64,000 nucleotides of DNA, from the NCBI GenBank assembly GCA_903861005.1, contig CAIOSP010000048.1, positions 1 through 64,000 of the forward strand, given 5' to 3'. This document shows, one piece after another, positions 20,809 to 33,453 of this stretch. The translations under genes were made by a program, and so were the position numbers. Below the pieces are notes generated by a model, which did no database searches, was not told where the DNA came from, and saw only the letters and a list, made by a program, of their open reading frames with translations. This DNA comes from an uncultured Pseudomonadota bacterium (GTDB lineage: Bacteria > Myxococcota_A > UBA796 > GCA-2862545). How positions within the stretch are numbered: the first letter of the stretch is position 1; the number at the start of each line of letters is the position of its first letter.

Positions 20809-22629
20809 ATGGCCGGTCTGATGGGCGTCGTCCAGGACACCGACGGACCCCTGTCCGATGCGGTGCTGGCAAAGATGCGCGCCCGCGCGGTCCACCGTGG
20901 CGTGGCCGATGGCCTGTGGCGGGAAGGCGGCGCGACGCTCGCTTGGTCTGGCCCAGCACCCTGCACGGCGATCGACGATGACTTCTTCGTCCTGTTGGAC
21001 GGGTGGGTATCGTTCCCCGGCGCCGACCCCAAAGATCCGCTGGCCCGCCTGCACGACGCCGCCACGTTCGCCGCCGGGTGGCGCAAGTGGGGCGTGGACT
21101 TGCTCCGCCAGCTGGAGGGCGAGTTCGCCGCCGCCGTGGTCGAGCGCAAGTCGGGCGTGGTCCACCTGGTCCGCGACCCCTGCGGCACCCGCCCGCTCTA
21201 CTGGGCGCGCACCCACAAGCGGCTGGCCTTCTCGTCGGACCTGGCGCCGCTGCTGGAGCTGGACTGGGTGAGCCGCGAGCTCGCCCGCGAAAACCTGGCC
21301 GAGTACCTTTCCTTCCGCGTGGTGCACCCGCCTCGGACCCTGCTGCGCGACGTGTTCTCCCTGCCCGCCGGTCACCGGCTGCGCAGCGGCGCGGACGCGG
21401 TGCGCGTGGTGCGCTGGTTCTCCCCCACCTACGCGGCCCCCGGCACCGCCACGCCGCGGCCCCAGGACGTGGTGCCCGAGCTGACCGCCGCGGTGGAGTC
21501 CGCCGTGCGTCGGCGCCTGCGCGGCGACGCGAACGTGGGCGTGTACTTGTCGGGCGGCGTGGGGTCGACGTCGATCCTGGCGGCGGCGCGCGCCGCGTCA
21601 CGCAAGCTCCAGACGTTCACGGTCGCGTTCGCCGACGAGCCCAGCCCCGAGTCGCCCTTCGCCGGTCGCATCGCGCAGCTGCTCGGCATGGACCACCACA
21701 CGGTGCTGGTGGGCACCAAGGAGGTGGCCGACGGGTTTGACGACGCGGTGGACGCGCTCGGGCACCCCATCGGCAACATCTCGGCCGTGCTGCAGCTGCA
21801 CTTGGCACGGGCCACGGTGGGCAAGGTGTCGACCATCCTCACCGGCGACGGCACCGACGAGCTGTTCGGCGGGCGCATGCTGGAGGGCCCGGCGGCCTCG
21901 CTCGCCCGGTCGGCGGCCTTCCACCGCCTGCCCAACGCGCTGCGCGCCCCGCTCGACAAGGCCCTGGCGGCGATCGGCCGCGGCGACAGCGTGCGCGAGG
22001 GCCCCGAGACCTGGGCCCTGTCGCACGGCGTCGGCGGACTGAACGTCTACGACAGCCGCGCGCGCCGCTCGCTGCTGCTCGACGACCTGCACGTCCGCCC
22101 GAACGTGCGCCAGGAGGTGCTGCGCCCGTTCTACGACGCGGTGGACACCGACCCGCTCAACGCGGTGCTGGAGGCCTTCTTCCAGTCGTCGCTGGTGGCG
22201 GACACGCTGCCTCGCGTCGAGGGTACGGCGGCGTCCGTGGGCCTGGACGTGGGCTACCCGCTGCTCGACCGCGAGGTGCGCCGCATCGCGCAGGTGCTGC
22301 CCGGCGCGTTCAAGGTGGGCGGCGTCGGTCGCACCGATCTGCCCACGCGCTGGCTGCTGCGCGCAGCCCTCCAGGGCGCCGTCCCGGCCGCGCTGGTCAA
22401 CCGACCGGACCGCGAGCTGCCGCGTCCGCTCGACGCCTGGCTCACCGGCCCCGGCCGCCTATTCCTGGAGGAGCGGTTCGCCGACCTGCGCCGGGATCCG
22501 CTCGAGCTGTTCCACACCACCGCGCTGGAGGCGCTCAAGCGCGGCCTGTCCAAGACGCCGGGCGCGGCGCAGCGGATGTGGTCGCTGCTGATCTTGGACA
22601 CGTGGATGCGCCGGACCGGCGTGACCTAG
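20809..22629 (+). CDS. Asparagine-synthetase-like protein lacking key catalytic residues
   Basis: The 606-residue protein has the two-domain plan of class B asparagine synthetases: an N-terminal glutaminase-like domain (to about 200) and a C-terminal synthetase domain with 'TGDGTDELFGG'. The N-terminus is M-A-G-L, so the Cys2 nucleophile of the glutaminase is Ala. The ATP pyrophosphatase loop reads S-G-G-V-G-S at 248-253, where SGGxDS is normal, so the conserved Asp is Gly. ATG 20809 follows GGAGG. The gene diverges from tamA and converges with the lipoxygenase-like gene. It may be ammonia-dependent, use another substrate (as beta-lactam synthetase does), or be inactive. Confidence 0.85.
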   Translation: MAGLMGVVQDTDGPLSDAVLAKMRARAVHRGVADGLWREGGATLAWSGPAPCTAIDDDFFVLLDGWVSFPGADPKDPLARLHDAATFAAGWRKWGVDLLRQLEGEFAAAVVERKSGVVHLVRDPCGTRPLYWARTHKRLAFSSDLAPLLELDWVSRELARENLAEYLSFRVVHPPRTLLRDVFSLPAGHRLRSGADAVRVVRWFSPTYAAPGTATPRPQDVVPELTAAVESAVRRRLRGDANVGVYLSGGVGSTSILAAARAASRKLQTFTVAFADEPSPESPFAGRIAQLLGMDHHTVLVGTKEVADGFDDAVDALGHPIGNISAVLQLHLARATVGKVSTILTGDGTDELFGGRMLEGPAASLARSAAFHRLPNALRAPLDKALAAIGRGDSVREGPETWALSHGVGGLNVYDSRARRSLLLDDLHVRPNVRQEVLRPFYDAVDTDPLNAVLEAFFQSSLVADTLPRVEGTAASVGLDVGYPLLDREVRRIAQVLPGAFKVGGVGRTDLPTRWLLRAALQGAVPAALVNRPDRELPRPLDAWLTGPGRLFLEERFADLRRDPLELFHTTALEALKRGLSKTPGAAQRMWSLLILDTWMRRTGVT

Positions 22630-22636
22630 CGGGCCG

Positions 22637-24772
22637 TCAGCGGTTGGTGCGCGTGAGCTGCATCGCGCACACGTCCGACCACTTGTCGTGCACGCCCTGG
22701 GTCATCCGCGTGTGGATGAGCGGGGTGAGCGCGTGGAAGCGCGCGGCGAGCGAGCGCTCTCCAGTCATCGGGTCGCGCGCGACGCCTTGCGCGGTCTCGC
22801 CGTACAGCTCCTTCTCGAAGTTGTCGACGTCCACGTGGGTGAGCACGTCGCCGACGCACAGTTGGTAGAGGTTGTCGCACGCGGGCATGTCGGCGCGGGC
22901 GTGCCAGGCGCTGTCGTCATCCGGGTTGCGCGGCGGCAGGTCGTCGAGCTGGGCGCGCAGGCCGAAGGTCGCGAAGGTGGTGTCGCCGCCGGCCATGATC
23001 TGGCGCACGTTCGCCCAAGAGTGGCCCAAGGTGGAGAGGTAGACCGACACGCGGCAGAGCTGCGCGACGTCGTCGGCGGTGAAGACGCCGTGCACGTCGT
23101 GGGCGAACTCGGACGCGTCGAGCCAGGCGCTGGCGGGCGTCACACCATCCCACGGCGCCCAGGTGGGCCAGTTGGCATCCAGCTGGGCGAACACCCGCCG
23201 CAGCTCCTCGGTCCAGCGACGGGCCGGCGTGTCGTGCTCCCACCAGGACTGGATGCCGCCGCCGAGCGAGTCGAGGCCGTCGCGCACGTAGGGCGTCACC
23301 GCCTGGGTCCAGTACAGGTCGTGCACCAAGGGCGCGTAGTGTGACGGCGCGATCGACGCGCGGCGCGGGCGGAAGCTGCGCCAGTGGATCGCCGCCACCC
23401 GCCGACGGAAGCGGCGGCGCAGCGCCGTGGAGGTGAGCGAGCTGCACACGCTCAGCAGCCCCGCGTCGCCCCAGATCACCGCGTCCGCGCCGCGGTTGAC
23501 GATCGTGACCTCGGCCAGGCGCGTGGTGAGCAGCTGGCGGACCGGGTGGTCGTCCGACAGGCGGCCGGTCTCGATGGCCACCGCGATCACCTCGGGCACC
23601 AGGTGGCCCAGCGAGACGTGCAGGTCGATCTGACCGTGCAGCAGCGACGCCGAGCACACGATCCGACGCGCGCGCTCCTTACGCCAGTCGGGCTCGGCCG
23701 GGTCGCGCATGGCGACCGTGGACCAGGGCCCGTACGACGCCTCGCCGCCGTACTGGTAGTCGGTCGCGGGCACGCCTTCGACGCGGCGGTAGCGAATGCG
23801 GAGGGTGTCGACCTCGACCAGACCCTGCGCGCGCACGAAGCGCACGACGATCTCGGGCAGGCGGTAGGTGTCGTACGCGCGGCCGATCTCGTCGCCAAAC
23901 AGGTCGTCGACGCACGTGTAGTGCAGCTCGAACGCGTCCGGCTCGCCGTCGACCACGCGCAGGTGCGCCGGGGCCATGCCGTTGAGCAGGTGGTGGACCA
24001 TCCAGGACCCGCGCCGCGCCTCGGGCGTCATGGAGGCGGTCGGGCTCTCCTCGAACTTGCCCAGGCGCTTCCACTCCGCCAAGCGCTCGGGCGCCACGCC
24101 CGGGCAGTCGCCGTGCTGACGCTGGAATTGCGCGCCGATCAGCGGCTCGATCAGGGTTCGCAGCACGTCGTTCCCGATGGTGTCCACCACCAGCCGCTCT
24201 GGGATGGACACCGCCGTGGCGCCGCCGTGCTTGAGCACGCTGTCGCGCATCTGCGCCAGCTGCCAGTCGTCGTTCATGCCCGCGGAGAACAGGGCGTTCG
24301 GCGGCGCAGTGAAGGCCCGGCGAGGCGGGCCCTCGGGCTCATCCGTGCGCCATGCCCACCCTGCCTGAGGCTTGAAGAGACCACGAAACACGGATCGAAG
24401 GATCTTTGCGCCCACCTCATCCGTGTGGAGCTGCACGGGAGTAGCGCTGTTCCACACGGTCGACGCGGCGTTTGAAGCCTTCTCCACGTCGTCCTGAAGC
24501 TCGCTCACCTCACGAACCGCGTCATGCAGCAGCTCGCTCAATTCCGCGCTCAGGTTCAGCCGAGACACTGCGCCGAGGTGGTCCGTCACCTCAAACGTGG
24601 GGACCTTGCGCAGCCAAAGGGGCGCCGCCCGTCCGCCACCAAGCGCGCGGTGCACGGTCAGGATCGTCTTGCGGACAAGGCCCAGAACACCAGGATCATT
24701 TCGGTTGACTTGCAGCACACGGGGCGAGGTCACGAGGGTCGGTGAGGTCAAGGAAAGCTCCCGCGCCAGCAT
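22637..24772 (-). CDS. Lipoxygenase-like protein
   Basis: The 711-residue product shows the core of the lipoxygenase fold. 'HHLLNGMAPAHLRVV' matches the G-x-N-P-x-x-I element, and His379, His385 and His390 form an HxxxxxHxxxxH cluster within 'LHGQIDLHVSLGHLVPEVIA'. 'DDHPVRQLL' is the second signature, and His584-S-W-A-Asn588 reproduces the HxxxN iron ligands. Lipoxygenases insert dioxygen into polyunsaturated fatty acids using mononuclear iron. Two deviations: the first two histidines are 6 rather than 5 apart, and the C-terminal Ile ligand is missing (the end reads TRTNR). ATG 24772 lies 5 bases after the kinase gene; an ATG at 24814 would overlap it. Confidence 0.7.
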   Translation of the reverse strand: MLARELSLTSPTLVTSPRVLQVNRNDPGVLGLVRKTILTVHRALGGGRAAPLWLRKVPTFEVTDHLGAVSRLNLSAELSELLHDAVREVSELQDDVEKASNAASTVWNSATPVQLHTDEVGAKILRSVFRGLFKPQAGWAWRTDEPEGPPRRAFTAPPNALFSAGMNDDWQLAQMRDSVLKHGGATAVSIPERLVVDTIGNDVLRTLIEPLIGAQFQRQHGDCPGVAPERLAEWKRLGKFEESPTASMTPEARRGSWMVHHLLNGMAPAHLRVVDGEPDAFELHYTCVDDLFGDEIGRAYDTYRLPEIVVRFVRAQGLVEVDTLRIRYRRVEGVPATDYQYGGEASYGPWSTVAMRDPAEPDWRKERARRIVCSASLLHGQIDLHVSLGHLVPEVIAVAIETGRLSDDHPVRQLLTTRLAEVTIVNRGADAVIWGDAGLLSVCSSLTSTALRRRFRRRVAAIHWRSFRPRRASIAPSHYAPLVHDLYWTQAVTPYVRDGLDSLGGGIQSWWEHDTPARRWTEELRRVFAQLDANWPTWAPWDGVTPASAWLDASEFAHDVHGVFTADDVAQLCRVSVYLSTLGHSWANVRQIMAGGDTTFATFGLRAQLDDLPPRNPDDDSAWHARADMPACDNLYQLCVGDVLTHVDVDNFEKELYGETAQGVARDPMTGERSLAARFHALTPLIHTRMTQGVHDKWSDVCAMQLTRTNR

Positions 24773-24777
24773 AGATG

Positions 24778-27700
24778 CTAGAGCGGAGGACCGGGCACCA
24801 CCGCTCTGGACCATGAAGGTAGACTACGAATGCCGCGCTGCTGCAATCGGCCTCGTAGCTCAAGCTCTGAAGTCTGGTTCCCGTCAAGGACTGAATCGTA
24901 CAGCAAGACGAGATCGCGATGTGCGTGCATACCGATCGCGTCGTAATTTATTGCGGCTCTTCGGTACGCATTTCTTGCGCCCTCCACGTCGCCATCGACC
25001 CACGCGGCGGCGCCCCGCAAGGCGGCCCCTACGGCCTGCGCCCAGCGGTGCGGCTGGCGCTCGAAGTGGCGCGCGTCGGCGCGGGCGCGGGCCATGGCCT
25101 TTCGGTCACGCCGGGCGGCGCCGACCAGCGCGGCGCCCATGCGGGACTCGATGCGGACGTGCAACGCGGACTGGAGGAACCACGCGTGCGCGCGGAGCGC
25201 CTCGACCGCGGCGGCGGCGGCGTCCAGATCGTTTCGGACCAGCGCGATCGACACCCGAGCGTGCAGCTGCAGGTACTTCGTGCCGAACGGAACGCTGAGG
25301 TCTTCGCCGGGGCGGCGCAGGTCGATCACCTGATCGGCGCGGTCGGGATCATCGTCGACCAGGGCGAGGCACGCGACCAACCCGACGCGGATCTGCTCCT
25401 CCTGGACCCGGTTGCCGTTCGCGATCGCGTTGGACAGCTCGCGGTCGACGAACTCGCGGAGCCCTGCGTAGTCGCCGCGGTAGCGCAGCGTCCAGCCCAG
25501 GTGACGCTCGGCGTGGGCGCGCTCCCACCCTTCGGCCACCATGGACCGCCACGACTCGAGCGCCGAGGTCAGGTGCGCGTGCGCGTCGTCGATCTCACCG
25601 CGGATGAACGCGCCGTAGCCGAGCCCCCAGTGCATGAGCGCCCGCTGCTCGACGTCGTCGGTCTGCGCCAGAGCCGCGAGCGCCCGATCGACGAGCGCGC
25701 GGGTGCTCGAGCTCACCTTCGCGGACGTCAGGCCGTAGGCCAGCTCATGCACCAGCCCCTGCGCCTGCTGGCGCGCGTCGCCCCAGCGGGCGGCCTCGTA
25801 GGCGTGCGACACCTGGAACGGCGCGCCGCGCTCAAAGTCCACGCTGCCGAGCGCGCCCGCAAGCACCCAGCCGACGTCGATGCGCTCCGAGCGTCGGGCG
25901 TCGGGCGTGCCCCGGGGTGCGCCGCGCAGACGCCAGATCGCCGTGACCGCCTGCCACCAGAAGGCCTGCGCCACCGTCTCCACCAGGTTGCGTGACCAAC
26001 GCAGCCCCAGCCGCGACATCATCGGGTCGAGCCGCTCACGGCCCAGGTCGAAGCGGCCCGCGCCGAACGCGATCTCCGCCGCGCGGATGCGGGCGCGGGA
26101 CGCCCGCTCGCCGTTGAGGTGCTCGCTCGCCTCGATCCACGCGCGCGACGCGGCCTCGATCACGCCCGTTCGGGTGACCGCCTCGGCGCGCCGCAGGAAG
26201 GCGTGCGCGGGGTCGGCCGCGTGCTCGCCGACGTAGGCGTAGAAGTGCGCGGCGTCCGCCCAGGCGTACTTGGCGAAGGCCTCGTCGGCGGCATTGCGCG
26301 CGTAGGTGAGCGCCCGGTCGGCACGTCCCGCGGCCAAGTTGTGGTGGAAGAGCACGCTGGGGGGTGCGGCGTCACGGGCCTCAAGCGCGTCGGCGAGGCG
26401 CGCGTGGATGGCCGGGACCTGATCGGCGGCGACGCGCTGCTGCTCCCAGACGCGCCAGCGGTCGTGCGCCGGCTGGAACGCGGTGCGACCCGTGTGCGCG
26501 ACCCGCGCGATCATCCCCCGGCGGCCGAGGTCCTGAAGCGCGGCCGGCGGCACCTTGGCCCCCACCACCGCGTCGAGCGAAGCCAGATCGAGCGGCCCCA
26601 CCGAGAAGGCGAGCGCCTGACTGACCGAACGGGCGACCTCGTCCAGGCGCGCGTGAGCTTGCTCCATGGCGGCGGCCGGGTCGGCCGAGCGCGACGGGTC
26701 CGCGCTGAGCACGGTCATGAGCAAGAACGGGTTGCCTGCCGTCGAGTGGAGCAGCGCGTCCACGCCCGTCGGGTCCAGGTCCCGGTGCAGACGGGCCGCC
26801 CACTCGACCACCGCGTCGGCGCCCAGACCCGAAAGCTCCAGGTCGACCGAGGCGCCGCCCGCGTCCGCCGCCGCCCAGGCCGGGCGCGTGCGCGCGGTGA
26901 GCAGCAGCGTCACCCCGGCGGGGCCGTGCAGCCGCAGCGCCTTGAGGAAGGGCAGCGAGTCTTCGTCGGCCCACTGGGCGTCGTCCAGCCACAGACGGAG
27001 CGGGCCATCCTGCGCCACGCGACCGACCAGCGACACGAAGGCGCGCGCGGCCTCGACCACCGCGCGGTCGGGCTCCACGGTCGCCGGGGCGACGCCGAGC
27101 ACGTCGAGGCGCTGGAAGAGCGGCAGCAACACCGCCACCGCGTCGCGCGTGGCCGCCTCGCGCTCCTGGGCGCGCGACACCTGGCACCAGGCCAGCAGGT
27201 CGTCGATCCACCCGTCGACCGCCGGGTACGGGATGGAGCAGTCCGGGTAGCAGCGGCTGCGCCAGGTCGACCCGGGTCGCGTGCGGCCAACCTCAGTCAG
27301 GAGGGCCTCGACCAGGACGGTCTTGCCGACGCCCGAGGGCCCAAGGACCGTGGCGACCACCAGCCCTTCGGAGGCCGCGGCGTCGGCCTGGACCAGCGCC
27401 GCCAGCTCGTCCGTGCGACCGAGGAACACCCGACGAACCCGGTCGCCCTCGGACAGGCCGCGCTCCGACAGCAGGTCGACGAGCTCGTCGGCGGTGGGCC
27501 GGGCGCACGGCTCGGGCGCCAACATGCGCGCCACGAGCGACGCGAGATTCGGCGGGGCGTCGACGGCCTGCATCGGGGGCGCGTCGCCCATGCGGGTGGC
27601 GAGAAGTGTCTGGTCGGGGTCGCCGTGGAAGGGCGGGTGTCCGTGCAAGATCTCGTAGACGATCGCGCCCAGCGACCAGACGTCTGAGGTGGGGCCGCTG

Positions 27701-28248
27701 GTGGCGCCCTGGAGCAGCTCGGGCGCGAGGTAGCCCTGGGTGCCCGAGCCCCCCTCCAGGTCCTCGCTGCGCGAGCCCATGGAGCGGAAGCGGCCGGACA
27801 CGTCGAAGTCGATCAGCACGACGGTGTCGGGCGCCGTGCAGATCAGGTGCTCCGGCTTGAGGTCGCCGTGGGCGAGGCCGGCGTCATGCAGCGCGAGCAG
27901 CGCGTCGGCGGCCTGGCGCAGCAGCCGGGTCAGCGCGGGCCAGCGCGCGTCGGGCGGGGCGGCGACCATCGCCGCGGAGAGCGTGGGGCCCTCCACCCAG
28001 TCCATGACCAGGCCCATCTGCCCGTCGCGCTCGACCAGCTCGAGCATGCTGACCAGGCCTGGGTGCAGCACCTGCTCGCGCAGGCGGTACTCGCGCCGCA
28101 GGTTGGTCGGGCCGCCCACCACGCCGTCGATCGCAAACTTGAGCGCGACCTGACGGGCGAGCTGGCGGTCCCAGGCGCGGTGGACCACGCCCGAGGCTCC
28201 GCGCCCGGAGACCTCCATGACCTCGAACCGGTCGGCATAGACGGACAA
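24778..28248 (-). CDS. Ser/Thr kinase with AAA-type ATPase and TPR-like region
   Basis: Domains in order: an N-terminal protein kinase (to about 270) with 'GRGASGVVHRAWD', 'VALKF', 'HGDLKPEHLI' (HRD has become HGD), 'DFDVSG' in place of DFG, and 'GYLAPELL'; a P-loop ATPase with Walker A 'GPSGVGKT' and Walker B 'LRLWLDDAQW'; then roughly 550 residues of helical repeats. This is the PknB-AAA-TPR type of large signalling protein common in Myxococcota. The start is uncertain: TTG 28248, with GGGAG 9 bases upstream, begins just before the kinase domain, but the frame is open to 28392. It is followed closely by the lipoxygenase-like gene, probably co-transcribed. Confidence 0.85.
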   Translation of the reverse strand: MSVYADRFEVMEVSGRGASGVVHRAWDRQLARQVALKFAIDGVVGGPTNLRREYRLREQVLHPGLVSMLELVERDGQMGLVMDWVEGPTLSAAMVAAPPDARWPALTRLLRQAADALLALHDAGLAHGDLKPEHLICTAPDTVVLIDFDVSGRFRSMGSRSEDLEGGSGTQGYLAPELLQGATSGPTSDVWSLGAIVYEILHGHPPFHGDPDQTLLATRMGDAPPMQAVDAPPNLASLVARMLAPEPCARPTADELVDLLSERGLSEGDRVRRVFLGRTDELAALVQADAAASEGLVVATVLGPSGVGKTVLVEALLTEVGRTRPGSTWRSRCYPDCSIPYPAVDGWIDDLLAWCQVSRAQEREAATRDAVAVLLPLFQRLDVLGVAPATVEPDRAVVEAARAFVSLVGRVAQDGPLRLWLDDAQWADEDSLPFLKALRLHGPAGVTLLLTARTRPAWAAADAGGASVDLELSGLGADAVVEWAARLHRDLDPTGVDALLHSTAGNPFLLMTVLSADPSRSADPAAAMEQAHARLDEVARSVSQALAFSVGPLDLASLDAVVGAKVPPAALQDLGRRGMIARVAHTGRTAFQPAHDRWRVWEQQRVAADQVPAIHARLADALEARDAAPPSVLFHHNLAAGRADRALTYARNAADEAFAKYAWADAAHFYAYVGEHAADPAHAFLRRAEAVTRTGVIEAASRAWIEASEHLNGERASRARIRAAEIAFGAGRFDLGRERLDPMMSRLGLRWSRNLVETVAQAFWWQAVTAIWRLRGAPRGTPDARRSERIDVGWVLAGALGSVDFERGAPFQVSHAYEAARWGDARQQAQGLVHELAYGLTSAKVSSSTRALVDRALAALAQTDDVEQRALMHWGLGYGAFIRGEIDDAHAHLTSALESWRSMVAEGWERAHAERHLGWTLRYRGDYAGLREFVDRELSNAIANGNRVQEEQIRVGLVACLALVDDDPDRADQVIDLRRPGEDLSVPFGTKYLQLHARVSIALVRNDLDAAAAAVEALRAHAWFLQSALHVRIESRMGAALVGAARRDRKAMARARADARHFERQPHRWAQAVGAALRGAAAWVDGDVEGARNAYRRAAINYDAIGMHAHRDLVLLYDSVLDGNQTSELELRGRLQQRGIRSLPSWSRAVVPGPPL

Positions 28249-28429
28249 GGGCGGTCGCTCCCATAGCCGGTTCCCAAGGCCACTCCGGCCCCCACCACAC
28301 CCCGACCACCGACCCCATATCGGATCAGGCGGGTGGCGCGGGAGGGCGAAGGGGAAGCGGACACCGAATCGTCTCGGAGCTTGCCTCCACACCCCGCCCG
28401 CCCTAGGCTCGCCGGTGCGGAGTCCGCCC

Positions 28430-30100
28430 TTGTCCTACCTCGCGATCGCCCGGAAATATCGCCCCGCCAACTTTGAAGAGATGGTCGGGCAGGACCACGT
28501 CACGCGCATCCTGTCGGCGGCGATCGCCCGCGGTCGCGTTCACCACGCGTTCTTGTTCTGCGGGGCGCGCGGCGTGGGCAAGACCACGGCGGCGCGCGCG
28601 CTGGCCAAGGCGCTGAACTGCGCCAAGGGCCCCACCGCCACCCCGTGCGGGGTGTGTACGTCGTGCGTGGAGATCGCCGCGGGCAACAGCCCGGACCTGA
28701 TCGAGATCGACGGCGCGTCGAACAACTCGGTCGACGACGTCCGCGAGCTGCGCGAGACCATCCAGTACGCGCCGACGCTCGGCAAGTACAAGATCTACCT
28801 GATCGACGAGGTCCACATGCTGTCGGGCGCCGCGTTCAACGCGCTGCTCAAGACGCTGGAGGAGCCGCCGCCGAGCGCGCTGTTCATCTTCGCCACGACG
28901 GAGGCGTCGAAGATCCCCGACACCATCCTGTCGCGCGTGCAGCGCTTCGACTTCAAGCGCATCCCGGTCGCGGTGGTGTCGCAGCGCTTGGCCGAGATCG
29001 CCGAGAAAGAGGGCGTCTCGATCGGCGAGGCGGGCCTGAAGATGATCGCGCGGGCCGGTGAAGGCTCCATGCGCGACGCGCAGTCGCTGCTCGACAAGAT
29101 CATGAGCTTCAGCGGCAAGGAGGTCAGCGACGCCGAGGTGGCCGAGACGCTCGGCCTGATCGACCGCGACATCCTGTTTCGTATGCTCGACGCGCTCATC
29201 CACGGCGACGCCTCCACCTGCCTGGACGTGATCGGCCACGTCTACAACTACGGCTACGACATGGCCGAGTTCACGGAGGAGATGCTGGAGATGCTGCGCA
29301 ACGCCACGTTCGTCCGGCTGTCGGACGAAGCGCGCAAGCACGTGGACCTGGCGGGCGACGAGATCGAGCGCCTGCTGGCGATCACGTCTGACGTGGACGT
29401 GGAGACCCTGCCCCGCCTGTTTGCGGCGCTGCTGGAGACGCACGACCAGGTGTCGCGCGCGGCCCGCCCGCGCATCGTGCTGGAGATGGCGATCGCCCGG
29501 TTGGCGAGCACGCGCCCGGTGGTGCCGGTGTCGGCTCTGCTCACCCGCCTGGAGGACCTGGACCGCAAGCTGCGCCAGGGCGGCGGCGGCGGCGGTGGCG
29601 GTGGCGGTGGCGGCGGCGGACCTCGTGGCGACCAGCACCGCGCAGGCCCCGGTCGCGCGCAGCACCACAGCGCGCCGACGCAGCCCACGCAGCGCTCCCG
29701 CGGACACCGCACCCGCTCGTCGGCCCTGCCGTCCAGCGCCACCGACGACGATCGCTTCGCGGCCCTCAAGGAGGACCTGCTCGCGCTCGACCCGCCGGCC
29801 ACCGCGCTGGCTGAGGGCATGTTCCGCCGCAGCGGTCCGGCGATCGTGGTGACGGTGGCGTCGGGTCGCCCGTTCGCCGCGGCGCAGCGTCTGGCCGAGC
29901 GTGAAGAGGTCAAGGAGATCGTCGCGCAGTGCTACGGCCCGTCCGTCAGCCTGTCGATCGAGGCGTCGCTGGCGTCGCGCCGCGCGGACATCACGCCGGA
30001 GATGGAGCTGCTGGTGCGCAACGACCCGGGCGTGCAGCGGCTGCTGCGCGTGCTGGGCGCGCGCCTGGAGGGCGCCAAGCCGCCCGAGGGTGAGGCGTGA
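28430..30100 (+). CDS. dnaX: DNA polymerase III gamma/tau subunit
   Basis: DnaX is the motor of the clamp loader. The 556-residue protein begins 'MSYLAIARKYRP', matching the family when TTG 28430 is used (GGAG 7 bases upstream). It then has Walker A 'GARGVGKT' (45-52), four zinc-binding cysteines (C64, C73, C76, C79), Walker B 'LIDEVH' (124-129), sensor 'FATTE' and 'SRVQRFDF'. After the AAA domains a run of 13 glycines leads into a basic, low-complexity linker and a short C-terminal domain. It heads dnaX-ybaB-recR-rluA, all overlapping by 4 bases. Confidence 0.95.
   Translation: MSYLAIARKYRPANFEEMVGQDHVTRILSAAIARGRVHHAFLFCGARGVGKTTAARALAKALNCAKGPTATPCGVCTSCVEIAAGNSPDLIEIDGASNNSVDDVRELRETIQYAPTLGKYKIYLIDEVHMLSGAAFNALLKTLEEPPPSALFIFATTEASKIPDTILSRVQRFDFKRIPVAVVSQRLAEIAEKEGVSIGEAGLKMIARAGEGSMRDAQSLLDKIMSFSGKEVSDAEVAETLGLIDRDILFRMLDALIHGDASTCLDVIGHVYNYGYDMAEFTEEMLEMLRNATFVRLSDEARKHVDLAGDEIERLLAITSDVDVETLPRLFAALLETHDQVSRAARPRIVLEMAIARLASTRPVVPVSALLTRLEDLDRKLRQGGGGGGGGGGGGGGPRGDQHRAGPGRAQHHSAPTQPTQRSRGHRTRSSALPSSATDDDRFAALKEDLLALDPPATALAEGMFRRSGPAIVVTVASGRPFAAAQRLAEREEVKEIVAQCYGPSVSLSIEASLASRRADITPEMELLVRNDPGVQRLLRVLGARLEGAKPPEGEA
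29579..29617 (+). repeat. GGC/GGT triplet tract coding for 13 glycines in dnaX
   Basis: Thirteen consecutive glycine codons (mostly GGC, three GGT, last GGA) lie between the AAA/collar part and the C-terminal part of DnaX. The tract is perfectly in frame. It is a likely site of replication slippage and a flexible hinge. Confidence 0.9.
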
Positions 30101-30384
30101 GCGATCCGCACCTGGTCGACCTTCTGACGGGCTTCTTCGACCGGCTCGGGGCTGCGCGCACGGACGCGATGGCCGCGCGTCACACCGGCACGTCGTCCGA
30201 CGGCCTGGTGGTGGTGGTCGCCACCGCTGAGCCCGCGATCGTGGACGTGAAGATCGACCCGTCGGCCACGGGTGACGCGTTGACGCGCGGGCTGATCGAG
30301 GCGACGAACGACGCGCTGCGGCGCGCCACCACGGCGGCGGCAGTGAAGCTGGCCGCGGCAGCGGACGGAGGGAGCGGCACATGA
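30097..30384 (+). CDS. ybaB: YbaB/EbfC-family nucleoid-associated protein
   Basis: The 95-residue protein has the YbaB arrangement: an N-terminal helix, 'GLVVVVATAEPAIVDVKIDP' as the central beta-hairpin, then 'LTRGLIEATNDALRRA' as the C-terminal helix. YbaB proteins are dimers that bind DNA without strong sequence preference. The start GTG 30097 overlaps the dnaX stop and its stop overlaps the recR start. The dnaX-ybaB-recR order is conserved across bacteria, which supports the call despite weak sequence conservation. Confidence 0.88.
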   Translation: MSDPHLVDLLTGFFDRLGAARTDAMAARHTGTSSDGLVVVVATAEPAIVDVKIDPSATGDALTRGLIEATNDALRRATTAAAVKLAAAADGGSGT

Positions 30385-30983
30385 GCGACGGCGATCCGAT
30401 CAAGGACGCGGTGAAGCAGCTTCGCCGGCTCCCGGGCATTGGCGAGAAGAGCGCGACGCGGCTGGTCTACTGGCTGCTGCGCGCGCCGCCTGAGACCATC
30501 CCGAACATCTCGGAGGCGCTCGGCCGCTTGGTCACCGAGGTCCGCACCTGCGCGGTCTGCGGCAACCTGGGCGCGGTCGACCCCTGCCCCATCTGCGCCG
30601 ACCCGCGGCGCGACCCGGCCATGATCTGCGTGGTCGAGCACCCCCAGGACGTCATGGCGTTTGAGCGAAGCAACGAGTTCCGCGGCCGGTACCACGTGCT
30701 GCACGGCGCCATCTCCCCGCTCGACGGCGTGGGCCCCGGCGACCTCAACCTGCGCCCGCTGCTGGGCCGCCTGCGCGACGGCACCGTGAAGGAGGTCATC
30801 GTGGCGACCGACCCGGACGTCGAAGGCGACGCGACCGCGCTCTACCTGGTGCGCCTGCTGCAAGACGTCGGCATCACCGTGTCGCGCCTGGCGCACGGCA
30901 TCAGCGTCGGCACCGAGATCGAGTACGCCGACGCGGTCAGCTTGGGCCGCGCGCTCCTCAACCGCCAGCGGATCTCGGGATGA
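30381..30983 (+). CDS. recR: Recombination mediator RecR
   Basis: RecR works with RecO to load RecA on gapped DNA. The 200-residue protein has the helix-hairpin-helix 'LRRLPGIGEKSATRLVYWLL', the four-cysteine zinc finger (C-A-V-C, then C-P-I-C), and a TOPRIM domain with 'MICVVEHPQDVMAFER' and 'EVIVATDPDVEGDATALYL'. It ends with the expected 'LAHGISVGTEIEYAD'. It is coupled to ybaB (ATGA) and to the downstream pseudouridine synthase gene (ATGA). Confidence 0.97.
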   Translation: MSDGDPIKDAVKQLRRLPGIGEKSATRLVYWLLRAPPETIPNISEALGRLVTEVRTCAVCGNLGAVDPCPICADPRRDPAMICVVEHPQDVMAFERSNEFRGRYHVLHGAISPLDGVGPGDLNLRPLLGRLRDGTVKEVIVATDPDVEGDATALYLVRLLQDVGITVSRLAHGISVGTEIEYADAVSLGRALLNRQRISG

Positions 30984-31606
30984 GGGCGGTCTTTCGGGAC
31001 AAGTGGCTGTTGGTGATCGACAAGCCGTCCGGCCTGGCCTCGCAGCCGGACGAGGACGGCAGCGGCCAGGACATGTTCACCCGGCTGTCGCGCAAGGAAC
31101 GCTACGTCGGCCTGCACCACCGGCTGGACCAGCCGGCGTCGGGCTTGATCGTGGTGGCGCTCGACCCCAAGATCAACGCCGCACTCGCGGGCGCCTTCTT
31201 CAACCACGAGGTCGAGCGCACCTACCTGGCCGTGCTCGCGGGCGACGCGCTCCAGGCCGGGCAGCGTCTGACCTGGGACAAGCCGCTCGACGGCGTGCCT
31301 GCGGTGACCGACGTGGAGGTGCTGGGCACCGGCGGTGGTTTGATCGCCGCGCGCTTCACGCTGCAGACCGGTCGGACCCACCAGATCCGCCAGCACGCGG
31401 CCATGGCCGGGACGCCCATCATCGGCGATCGACGCTACGGCGGCGACGCGGGGACCTGGCTGGAGCGGCTCGCGCTCCACGCCGCGCGCTTGAAGCTCAA
31501 GCACCCGGCGACCGGCGCGATGATGACGTGGACCGCGCCGCTGCCGTCGCCGCTCGACGACGCGTGGACCGCCGCCGGCGGACCGGCCGACGCCCTCAAG
31601 GGCTGA
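30980..31606 (+). CDS. RluA-family pseudouridine synthase
   Basis: The 208-residue protein has the RluA catalytic motif 'HHRLDQPASGLIVVA' with the catalytic Asp near residue 49, then 'ERTYLAVLAG', 'TGRTHQIRQHAA' and 'GDRRYGG'. It lacks an S4 domain and is compact, like the single-domain RluA/TruC type that acts on rRNA or tRNA. It is the last gene of the dnaX operon, overlapping recR by 4 bases. Confidence 0.9.
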   Translation: MRAVFRDKWLLVIDKPSGLASQPDEDGSGQDMFTRLSRKERYVGLHHRLDQPASGLIVVALDPKINAALAGAFFNHEVERTYLAVLAGDALQAGQRLTWDKPLDGVPAVTDVEVLGTGGGLIAARFTLQTGRTHQIRQHAAMAGTPIIGDRRYGGDAGTWLERLALHAARLKLKHPATGAMMTWTAPLPSPLDDAWTAAGGPADALKG

Positions 31607-31656
31607 CCGACCCACGCCGCGGCGACCCGACCGCGGTGGCGGACGGGAAGACGACG

Positions 31657-31786
31657 GACGTGCCGCACAGGTGAGGACCGGGCGACCCAGGACCCCGGCG
31701 CTTGCGCTACCGTTGCTTCCTCTCGGATCTGGCGGGGTTCACGGGCGACGGTCCCTAGGACCCGGCCCTCACCTGTACGGCATGTC
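31657..31786 (-). ncRNA. ffs: Signal recognition particle RNA (small bacterial type, 4.5S)
   Basis: On the minus strand, a 26-base terminal helix with a few mismatches is formed by 31761-31786 and 31657-31682. It encloses the SRP core: 'GCCAGATCC', the GAGA tetraloop, 'GGAAGCAACGG', preceded by 'GTGAACCCC'. This matches the conserved helix 8 domain that binds Ffh, with GAGA in place of the common GGAA loop. The RNA lies directly downstream of tadA and two tRNA-Ser genes on the same strand, a neighbourhood shared with many bacteria. Exact ends are estimated from the helix. Confidence 0.9.
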
Positions 31787-31847
31787 AACGATTCGAATCT
31801 AAACACCGCGGAGCCGGCGTCACCCGACCAAGCCACGTTGCTGGAAA

Positions 31848-31937
31848 TGGCGGAGAGAAGGGGATTCGAACCCCTGGTACCTTTTACAGTACACACGCTT
31901 TCCAGGCGTGCACCTTCAACCACTCGGTCACCTCTCC
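31848..31937 (-). tRNA. tRNA-Ser (anticodon GGA)
   Basis: The 90-base gene has a 7-bp acceptor stem starting GGAGAGG, a long variable arm, the T-loop GGTTCGAATCC and an encoded CCA. The anticodon stem 'CACGCCT-GGA-AAGCGTG' gives anticodon GGA for UCC/UCU. The discriminator is G, as expected for serine tRNAs. Confidence 0.95.
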
Positions 31938-31972
31938 GGGGAAACACTGCGGGATCAAGCGTCTGCGCGTCG

Positions 31973-32062
31973 TGGCGGAGGGGGGGGGATTCGAACCCCC
32001 GTTACCCTCGCGGGCAAACCGGATTTCGAATCCGGCGCATTCAACCGCTCTGCCACCCCTCC
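31973..32062 (-). tRNA. tRNA-Ser (anticodon CGA)
   Basis: The 90-base gene has the acceptor stem GGAGGGG/CCCCTCC, discriminator G, an encoded CCA, and a long variable arm. The anticodon loop in 'GCCGGAT-TCGAAAT-CCGG' gives CGA, reading UCG. Its first base is immediately next to the tadA stop codon, with no spacer. Confidence 0.95.
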
Positions 32063-32530
32063 TCAACGACGTCGCAACGCTTGGAAGAACTCCCGCAGGA
32101 GCCTGCTGCACTCGTCTCCTCGCACCCCCCGGGTGACCTCGAACTCGTGGTTCAAGGCCGGGACGTGGCTTAGATCACCGAGTGTACCGAGGTAGCCGCC
32201 TTTTGGGTCAGCCGCTCCGAACACACAGCGATCTACCCGACTCAAGACCAGGGCACCCGCGCACATCGGGCAGGGCTCGAGGGTGACGTACACGGTGCAA
32301 CCCGTGAGGCGCCAAGACCCAAGCACCCGCGCGGCGTCGCGCATGGCCAGGAACTCCGCGTGCGCCGCGAAGTCCTGGTCGGTCTCACGGCGGTTGTACC
32401 CGCGCGCGATGACCAAACCGTCCTTCACGACGACCGCGCCGACCGGGACTTCACCCAGAGAAGCCGCATGCGCCGCGAGGCGTAGGGCTTCGTCCATATG
32501 GACCTGATCGGAATCGGTAGTAGACGACAT
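32063..32530 (-). CDS. tadA: tRNA adenosine(34) deaminase
   Basis: TadA deaminates A34 to inosine in tRNA-Arg(ACG). The 155-residue protein has the zinc and catalytic motifs 'AAHAEFLAM' (HAE) and 'LEPCPMCAGAL' (PCxxC), with 'GEVPVGAVVV' near the N-terminus and 'CVFGAADPKGG'. The start is taken as the Met at 32530; the Met at 32497 directly before 'DEALRLAAHAA' is an alternative with AGG 5-7 bases ahead. It is first in the minus-strand series tadA, tRNA-Ser, tRNA-Ser, ffs. Confidence 0.95.
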   Translation of the reverse strand: MSSTTDSDQVHMDEALRLAAHAASLGEVPVGAVVVKDGLVIARGYNRRETDQDFAAHAEFLAMRDAARVLGSWRLTGCTVYVTLEPCPMCAGALVLSRVDRCVFGAADPKGGYLGTLGDLSHVPALNHEFEVTRGVRGDECSRLLREFFQALRRR

Positions 32531-32703
32531 GCGGCACATCAAAGAACACCGCGAGCCGATGCCGGTTGGCAGGACCGCGAAAGCCCACGCCCACTAAAGC
32601 ACGCCCACGACGGTGTCAACCCACCTACGTGACCGGATCCGACGAGCCTTCGACACGAAGCGCCCACCGGGCCCGTTACAAGGGTAAACGAGTTGAGGAA
32701 ATC

Positions 32704-33453
32704 ATGCGACGCCTAGCCCTGCTGACCTTGCTCCTCCCGTCCCTCGCCCTGGCCAAGCCGGTCGCCCTGACCAGCAAGGACGGCACCAGCCTGCACGCCG
32801 AGGTGTCCGGTGCGGGCACGCGCGGCGTGATCCTGCTGCACGGCGAGGGATCGAACGCAGCCACCTGGAACTCGGTCCGGGAGCAGCTCGCCACCCACGG
32901 CTACCAGGTGCTGGCGCTTGACCTGCGCGGCTGCGGCACCAGCAAGGGCACGGCCGACGAGGCCGGCTGGGCGCACAGCCCGGAGGACGTGGCGGCGGCG
33001 CTGGCCTGGCTCAAGGCGCACGGCTCCACCAAGGTGGCGCTGCTCGGCTCGGAAGGCGGCGGCGTGGTCGCGCTGCAGTCGGCGGTCGGCCAGCCCATGG
33101 TCGACAGCGTGATCGTGCTCTCCCCTCGCCTGTCGGCGCCCGGCCTGAAGGTGTCCGCGGCGATCGAGGCCTACGGCGCCCACCCCCTGCTGATCGTGAC
33201 CGGGTCGACCGACACCACCGGCGTGCGCGCCGCGGCGGCCCTGGAGCCCCGGGCGCTCGGCCTCAAGCGCGTCGAGCTGATCGAGAACGGCGGCATCGGC
33301 GCGGTGCTGTTCAACCAGTCGTCCACGCTGGAGGGCACGGTGGTGCAGTGGCTGGCGGACGGAGGCCCCACGCCGGAGGACCACAAGGCCGAGTCGCTGC
33401 GGACCGCGGCGCCGGACGACCTGGAGACCACCGGGACGCGGTACGGGCAGTGA
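32704..33453 (+). CDS. Secreted alpha/beta-hydrolase-fold protein without a visible catalytic triad
   Basis: ATG 32704 has GAGG upstream and starts a signal peptide (MRRLALLTLLLPSLALA). The mature 230 residues have an alpha/beta-hydrolase pattern: 'GVILLHGEGSNAATW', 'VLALDLRGCGTS', 'KVALLGSEGGGVVALQSA', 'LLIVTGSTDTTG'. At the nucleophile elbow, where GxSxG is normal, it reads G-S-E-G-G with Glu117 in the nucleophile position. The region that normally holds the catalytic His reads 'ENGGIGAVLF' with none. It may be a non-enzymatic binding protein. Its stop overlaps the start of the CCA-adding enzyme (GTGA). Confidence 0.7.
   Translation: MRRLALLTLLLPSLALAKPVALTSKDGTSLHAEVSGAGTRGVILLHGEGSNAATWNSVREQLATHGYQVLALDLRGCGTSKGTADEAGWAHSPEDVAAALAWLKAHGSTKVALLGSEGGGVVALQSAVGQPMVDSVIVLSPRLSAPGLKVSAAIEAYGAHPLLIVTGSTDTTGVRAAAALEPRALGLKRVELIENGGIGAVLFNQSSTLEGTVVQWLADGGPTPEDHKAESLRTAAPDDLETTGTRYGQ

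Follow-up and report, generated by a model that had tools for sequence, protein, structure and literature searches.

The window analysed here is the whole 64,000-nucleotide stretch of DNA (positions 1 to 64,000 of the forward strand of CAIOSP010000048.1, assembly GCA_903861005.1) from an uncultured bacterium of the lineage Myxococcota_A; UBA796; GCA-2862545. It is part of one contig (C48) of a draft genome of 5.81 Mb in 223 contigs. The window contains a cluster of housekeeping genes in which dnaX, ybaB, recR and an RluA-type gene that we call rlu lie on the plus strand, and tadA, tRNA-Ser(CGA), tRNA-Ser(GGA) and ffs, the gene for the small signal recognition particle (SRP) RNA, lie on the minus strand, the two sets being tail to tail (Table 1). 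We found that this convergent arrangement is limited to the family of the window, and it was probably produced when the dnaX side of the cluster was inverted in place in the ancestor of that family.

All six gene kinds of the cluster (tadA, tRNA-Ser, ffs, dnaX, ybaB and recR) are contained within positions 28430-32542. The original prediction placed tadA, two tRNA-Ser genes and ffs on the minus strand facing the dnaX operon on the plus strand, and matches from ARAGORN, Rfam and NCBIfam/Pfam confirmed each of these parts. Its list was incomplete, since rlu, between recR and ffs, was missing from it. The dnaX, ybaB and recR genes follow each other in the order of a known operon on one strand, with a 4-base overlap at each junction from dnaX to rlu: dnaX/ybaB (30097-30100), ybaB/recR (30381-30384) and recR/rlu. 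From the stop codon of rlu to the ffs match there are 66 bases. The two sets converge, so ffs is not upstream of dnaX on a shared strand. This ffs is the single SRP RNA gene detected by an Rfam search of the whole genome. The start of dnaX at 28430 is the TTG of LSYLAIARKYRP, and a longer open reading frame (ORF) opens at 28415. The product of rlu scores above the Pfam domain cut-off (PF00849) and could not be assigned to a named RluA subfamily, the best of the NCBIfam RluA/RluC/RluD/TruC models, TIGR00005, giving 131.4 bits, below the cut-off of 192.7. DnaX also contains a run of glycine codons (GGN repeats, 29579-29619, plus strand) between its ATPase part and its tail.

Table 1. Features of the cluster and its flanks, in positions of the window.
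Feature	Position	Strand	Match or basis
dnaX, DNA polymerase III gamma/tau, first gene of flipped operon	28430..30100	+	TIGR02397 (dnaX_nterm) 439.4 bits, cut-off 250
ybaB/ebfC	30097..30384	+	PF02575 43.2 bits, Pfam cut-off 25.5; NCBIfam 28.9, below 49.45
recR	30381..30983	+	TIGR00615 245.7 bits, cut-off 162.55
rlu, RluA-family pseudouridine synthase, distal gene of flipped operon	30980..31606	+	PF00849 78.9 bits
ffs, small SRP RNA	31673..31767	-	RF00169 48.1 bits, gathering score 40, model 1-97 of 97
tRNA-Ser(GGA)	31848..31937	-	ARAGORN, RF00005
tRNA-Ser(CGA)	31973..32062	-	ARAGORN, RF00005
tadA, tRNA-A34 deaminase	32063..32542	-	NF008113 159.9 bits, NCBIfam equivalog cut-off 150
alpha/beta hydrolase, unflipped flank, divergent from tadA	32701..33453	+	PF12146/PF12697
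asnB, asparagine-synthase-like, upstream partner of flipped dnaX operon	20809..22629	+	PF00733 193.7 bits
gene without Pfam match, between asnB and dnaX, window's genus only	22637..24814	-	Pfam scan, gene maps
Ser/Thr protein kinase with AAA ATPase domain, between asnB and dnaX, window's genus only	24778..28392	-	PF00069, PF13191

The orientation of ffs (RF00169) relative to recR (TIGR00615) was surveyed in 140 genomes of the phylum, 21 of the family and 63 of the order. Profile searches detected recR in 20 of the 21 family genomes; G148, which had no match, is outside both the 20 genomes counted here and the 20 family tips of the tree described below. Both recR and ffs are on one contig in 16 of the 20, and each of these 16 shows the convergent order. 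They lie within 1.2 kb of each other in 15 of these and 5.5 kb apart in G024, where three predicted ORFs separate rlu from ffs. The remaining four (G068, G014, G096 and G034) have the two genes on different contigs or have no ffs match. Elsewhere in the order, 24 of the 39 genomes with recR have it on one contig with ffs; the two are co-directional in 24/24, with ffs 1.8-2.9 kb upstream of recR. Outside the order, recR was found in 109 phylum genomes, and in all 57 where ffs lies within 20 kb of it the two point the same way with ffs upstream; none is convergent. The others have the genes on different contigs (44), lack an ffs match (5) or have them more than 20 kb apart (3). Dropped from the phylum counts were G055, whose recR fragment fell short of the cut-off, as well as the second recR rows from G112, G039, G083, G056, G007, G102 and G123.

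Nine named loci, chosen from 80, were scanned with Rfam. In the family record JARACJ010000002.1 (Proteobacteria bacterium DTSAM18), ffs and the two tRNA genes lie on the strand opposite recR. An SRP RNA upstream on the recR strand was found in four of the eight named outgroup loci, those of Anaeromyxobacter sp. RBG_16_69_14 and of Desulfofundulus australicus, Lacticigenium naphthae and Longirhabdus pacifica, the last three of which we take to be Bacillota; Rfam detected no SRP RNA in the fetched stretch of the other four. Judging by its neighbors, the Myxococcota affinity implied in the original prediction is plausible. An assembly artefact was rejected as the source of the convergent arrangement because the same arrangement occurs in 16 assemblies, one of them on a 610 kb contig. 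Two observations concern individual records. G112, which belongs to the same class, has two SRP RNA genes (L107, L108), with dnaX and recR downstream of each. A RecR match with 49% identity (L211) comes from a metagenome-assembled genome record titled Klebsiella pneumoniae that falls among these relatives; the title may be wrong.

We placed the change on a FastTree phylogeny of concatenated DnaX, RecR and TadA matches from 74 genomes, including 20 family tips. The family forms a clade with support 1.0, as does the order, and the remainder of the order is its sister group (0.912). Fitch parsimony reconstructed the convergent state at the base of the family and required four changes, one from the co-directional state and three later separations (G014+G068, G096 and G034). 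A convergent base within a clade places the flip on the family stem, after the split from the other families of the order; this is a relative placement, with no absolute date. The original prediction held that an ancient cluster running in one direction had undergone a later local inversion, and looked to gene order in relatives to date it. Both claims stand: every linked genome in the rest of the order and, within 20 kb, in the rest of the phylum is co-directional, as are the four named outgroup loci, and the change is restricted to one fully supported clade that is convergent at its base. The original prediction took separate halves in close relatives as the mark of chance juxtaposition. For most of the family the halves are still close together, and three lineages separated them later.

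To compare neighborhoods, we mapped 114 loci (L062-L175), each a stretch of at most 20 kb surrounding recR, ffs, rlu or asnB, and annotated them by tblastn, by ARAGORN and by a simple gene caller. The caller made some wrong-strand ORFs (e.g. 21429-21959 of the window), and unnamed ORFs on the maps count as weak evidence. The ybaB gene was frequently missed because it is short and divergent. The identities of thiS, pilT and asnB come from domain searches on examples; a thiG label for the gene neighboring thiS was rejected when Pfam identified a PilT-type ATPase (T2SSE). In most outgroups within the order the genes are a divergent hydrolase gene, tadA, tRNA-Ser(CGA), tRNA-Ser(GGA), ffs, dnaX, ybaB and recR, all in one direction except the hydrolase gene. 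Several more distant members of the phylum also have tRNA-Ser(TGA), tRNA-Ser(GCT) and tRNA-Arg(ACG) before tadA, and four members of one outgroup genus (L091, L094, L102 and L153) keep ffs next to dnaX with the tadA/tRNA part not adjoining. Read in the same frame, the family has tadA, the two tRNA genes and ffs, followed by reversed rlu, thiS (in many members), recR, ybaB and dnaX, and then asnB. Beyond asnB are a small gene without a Pfam match and outward-pointing TamA-like and TamB-like genes. The rlu gene directly follows recR, or recR-thiS, in 18 of the 20 family genomes with recR, and in all 16 genomes with both genes on one fetched locus, asnB precedes dnaX on the same strand. The asnB-dnaX gap is 27-101 bp in 13 of these 16, the exceptions being G048 and the two members of the window's genus. 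In one family member, G143 (L067), a predicted ORF of 1270 aa lies between tRNA-Ser(GGA) and ffs.

The tail-to-tail order identifies the dnaX operon as the half that flipped, since turning the tadA half around in place would leave tadA and dnaX head to head. A flip of the dnaX half in place predicts that the gene formerly downstream of recR is now beside ffs and that the next gene out is beside dnaX. Both predicted joins, ffs|rlu and asnB|dnaX, are seen in the family. Outgroups retain pieces of the corresponding earlier order: in G077, from another family of the order, recR is followed, about 3.3 kb further on and in the same direction, by rlu, and in G136, G156, G157, G158 and G159 asnB is downstream of recR, past thiS and pilT. 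We consider it probable, from comparison of these gene orders, that the dnaX-ybaB-recR-(thiS)-rlu stretch underwent a single in-place inversion in the ancestor of the window's family. The ancestor of the order would have had the one-way arrangement seen in most outgroups, with thiS, pilT, rlu and asnB past recR. On the family stem, the inversion would have had its breakpoints between ffs and dnaX and past rlu, leaving rlu tail to tail with ffs and dnaX beside asnB. Later, in the window's genus, the kinase gene and its neighbor without a Pfam match would have come in between asnB and dnaX.

Several observations weigh against this scenario. The asnB gene shares the direction of ffs in the five outgroup genomes, whereas the family has it the other way round. 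In the majority of outgroups carrying thiS at this site it converges with recR, but family members have the two genes co-directional. These differences require two small events beyond one inversion, on which, as on the half that flipped, the original prediction was silent. The shortest scenario found by hand would be one flip spanning dnaX to rlu, accompanied by two minor changes of polarity. Small flips do occur here, as in outgroup G153, where the pilT-thiS pair is already reversed. The outgroup neighborhood is also patchy: outside the family only G077 has rlu near recR, and asnB is near rlu, not recR, in five loci of two other families, which were fetched because the coordinates of rlu and asnB were close. 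Finally, recR and ffs are on different contigs, or no ffs was detected, in 15 of the 39 genomes from the rest of the order and in 4 of the 20 from the family, which makes these genomes uninformative.

The two extra polarity changes leave some room for a path of several steps, with the dnaX operon first excised and then re-inserted reversed beside ffs, or for two larger overlapping inversions. The operon does appear mobile in this family, since in the four genomes with separated halves the contigs examined do not show it beside ffs, and rlu is still attached to it in three of them. Against this, both joins expected of an in-place flip use genes that are already near recR in outgroups, and the separated members are nested and scattered inside the family. 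We therefore regard re-insertion or overlapping inversions as rather unlikely, and we infer a single in-place event instead of several steps. That the tadA-tRNA-ffs half was the one to turn is very improbable. Relative orientation alone carries no information on which half moved, but flipping that half in place gives the head-to-head outcome, not the tail-to-tail genes observed, and a count by eye on the maps shows the hydrolase gene still at the tadA end in 18 of the 20 tadA loci from the family and in 25 of the 32 from the rest of the order. Chance juxtaposition of two unrelated pieces, which the unlinked parts in 4 of 20 family genomes might suggest, can be given almost no credence because every outgroup genome with these parts linked within 20 kb also has them side by side, in the opposite relative orientation.

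The inversion of the dnaX block would also have changed its transcriptional context. In nearly all mapped outgroup cases 2-225 bases separate the end of the ffs match from the start of the dnaX match, a short gap that makes read-through from the tRNA/ffs unit into dnaX possible. In most family members, 20-108 bases lie between the 3' end of rlu and ffs. The likely effect, to judge by gene positions, is that dnaX exchanged the tRNA/ffs unit for a protein-coding gene as its upstream transcriptional neighbor. In the window's genus the kinase gene and its neighbor separate asnB from dnaX, and dnaX there presumably has its own promoter. A scan of the region detected no sigma-70-type site (0.2 expected by chance). 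The idea that an intrinsic terminator is conserved between rlu and ffs was rejected, since a consensus scan of 28000-33000 turned up no terminator-like site in this gap of the window. It is doubtful that the flip was kept for changed regulation through the move of dnaX, ybaB and recR from behind a stable-RNA unit to behind asnB. If it was, these replication and repair genes would be decoupled from the output of the tRNA/SRP RNA unit and, should the rlu transcript read through, antisense transcription into ffs could tune SRP RNA. The end helix of ffs (31650-31790, minus strand) extends about 20 base pairs past the ends of the Rfam model, with 31 predicted pairs within 45-base flanks. A special SRP RNA of the flipped family was rejected because a similar extension is predicted in most outgroups, so the extension is not tied to the flip; the row for L167, whose ffs coordinates are outside the locus, was left out of this comparison.

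Two flanking features are recorded here for themselves. Glutamine-using asparagine synthases are expected to have a catalytic N-terminal Cys2. The asnB product begins MAGLMG in the window and MGG, MAA or MSG in family relatives; without the N-terminal cysteine, this protein may use another nitrogen source or catalyse another reaction. The interval 22637-28392 (minus strand) is filled, in the window's genus only, by a 725-aa protein without a Pfam match and the Ser/Thr kinase/AAA ATPase.

Every part of the locus is, by its matches, an ordinary housekeeping gene with no apparent sign of new activity, and only its context differs. What we describe is a known cluster rearranged in a clear and well-supported way, not a new system or mechanism. 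Because direction is uniform across all linked outgroup genomes sampled from the phylum, and the Bacillota-type loci examined agree with them, the family-fixed reversal is useful as a rare-change phylogenetic character. It is also a natural experiment on the importance of ffs-dnaX co-orientation. Our literature search, made on titles and abstract openings, found no description of this inversion and did not extend to literature outside the collection searched.

In the Bacillus-type cluster, tRNA-Ser, tadA, scr, dnaX, yaaK and recR run in one direction. The window has the same gene set in two facing directions, and in its order the two tRNA-Ser genes are placed between tadA and ffs; for this comparison the orientation of the SRP RNA gene relative to recR was checked in the Desulfofundulus, Lacticigenium and Longirhabdus loci. 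In tables for Sinorhizobium meliloti (PMC2573895) and Candidatus Pelagibacter ubique (PMC2704228), ffs is directly upstream of dnaX on the same strand, whereas in the window it is the far end of the operon that meets ffs, tail to tail. The dnaX-ybaB-recR operon of E. coli, as described in PMC9610160, has the same three genes in the same order on one strand, and the ybaB/recR overlap is found in the window too. Compared with that operon, the window adds an RluA-type gene after it, and the family has asnB before it.

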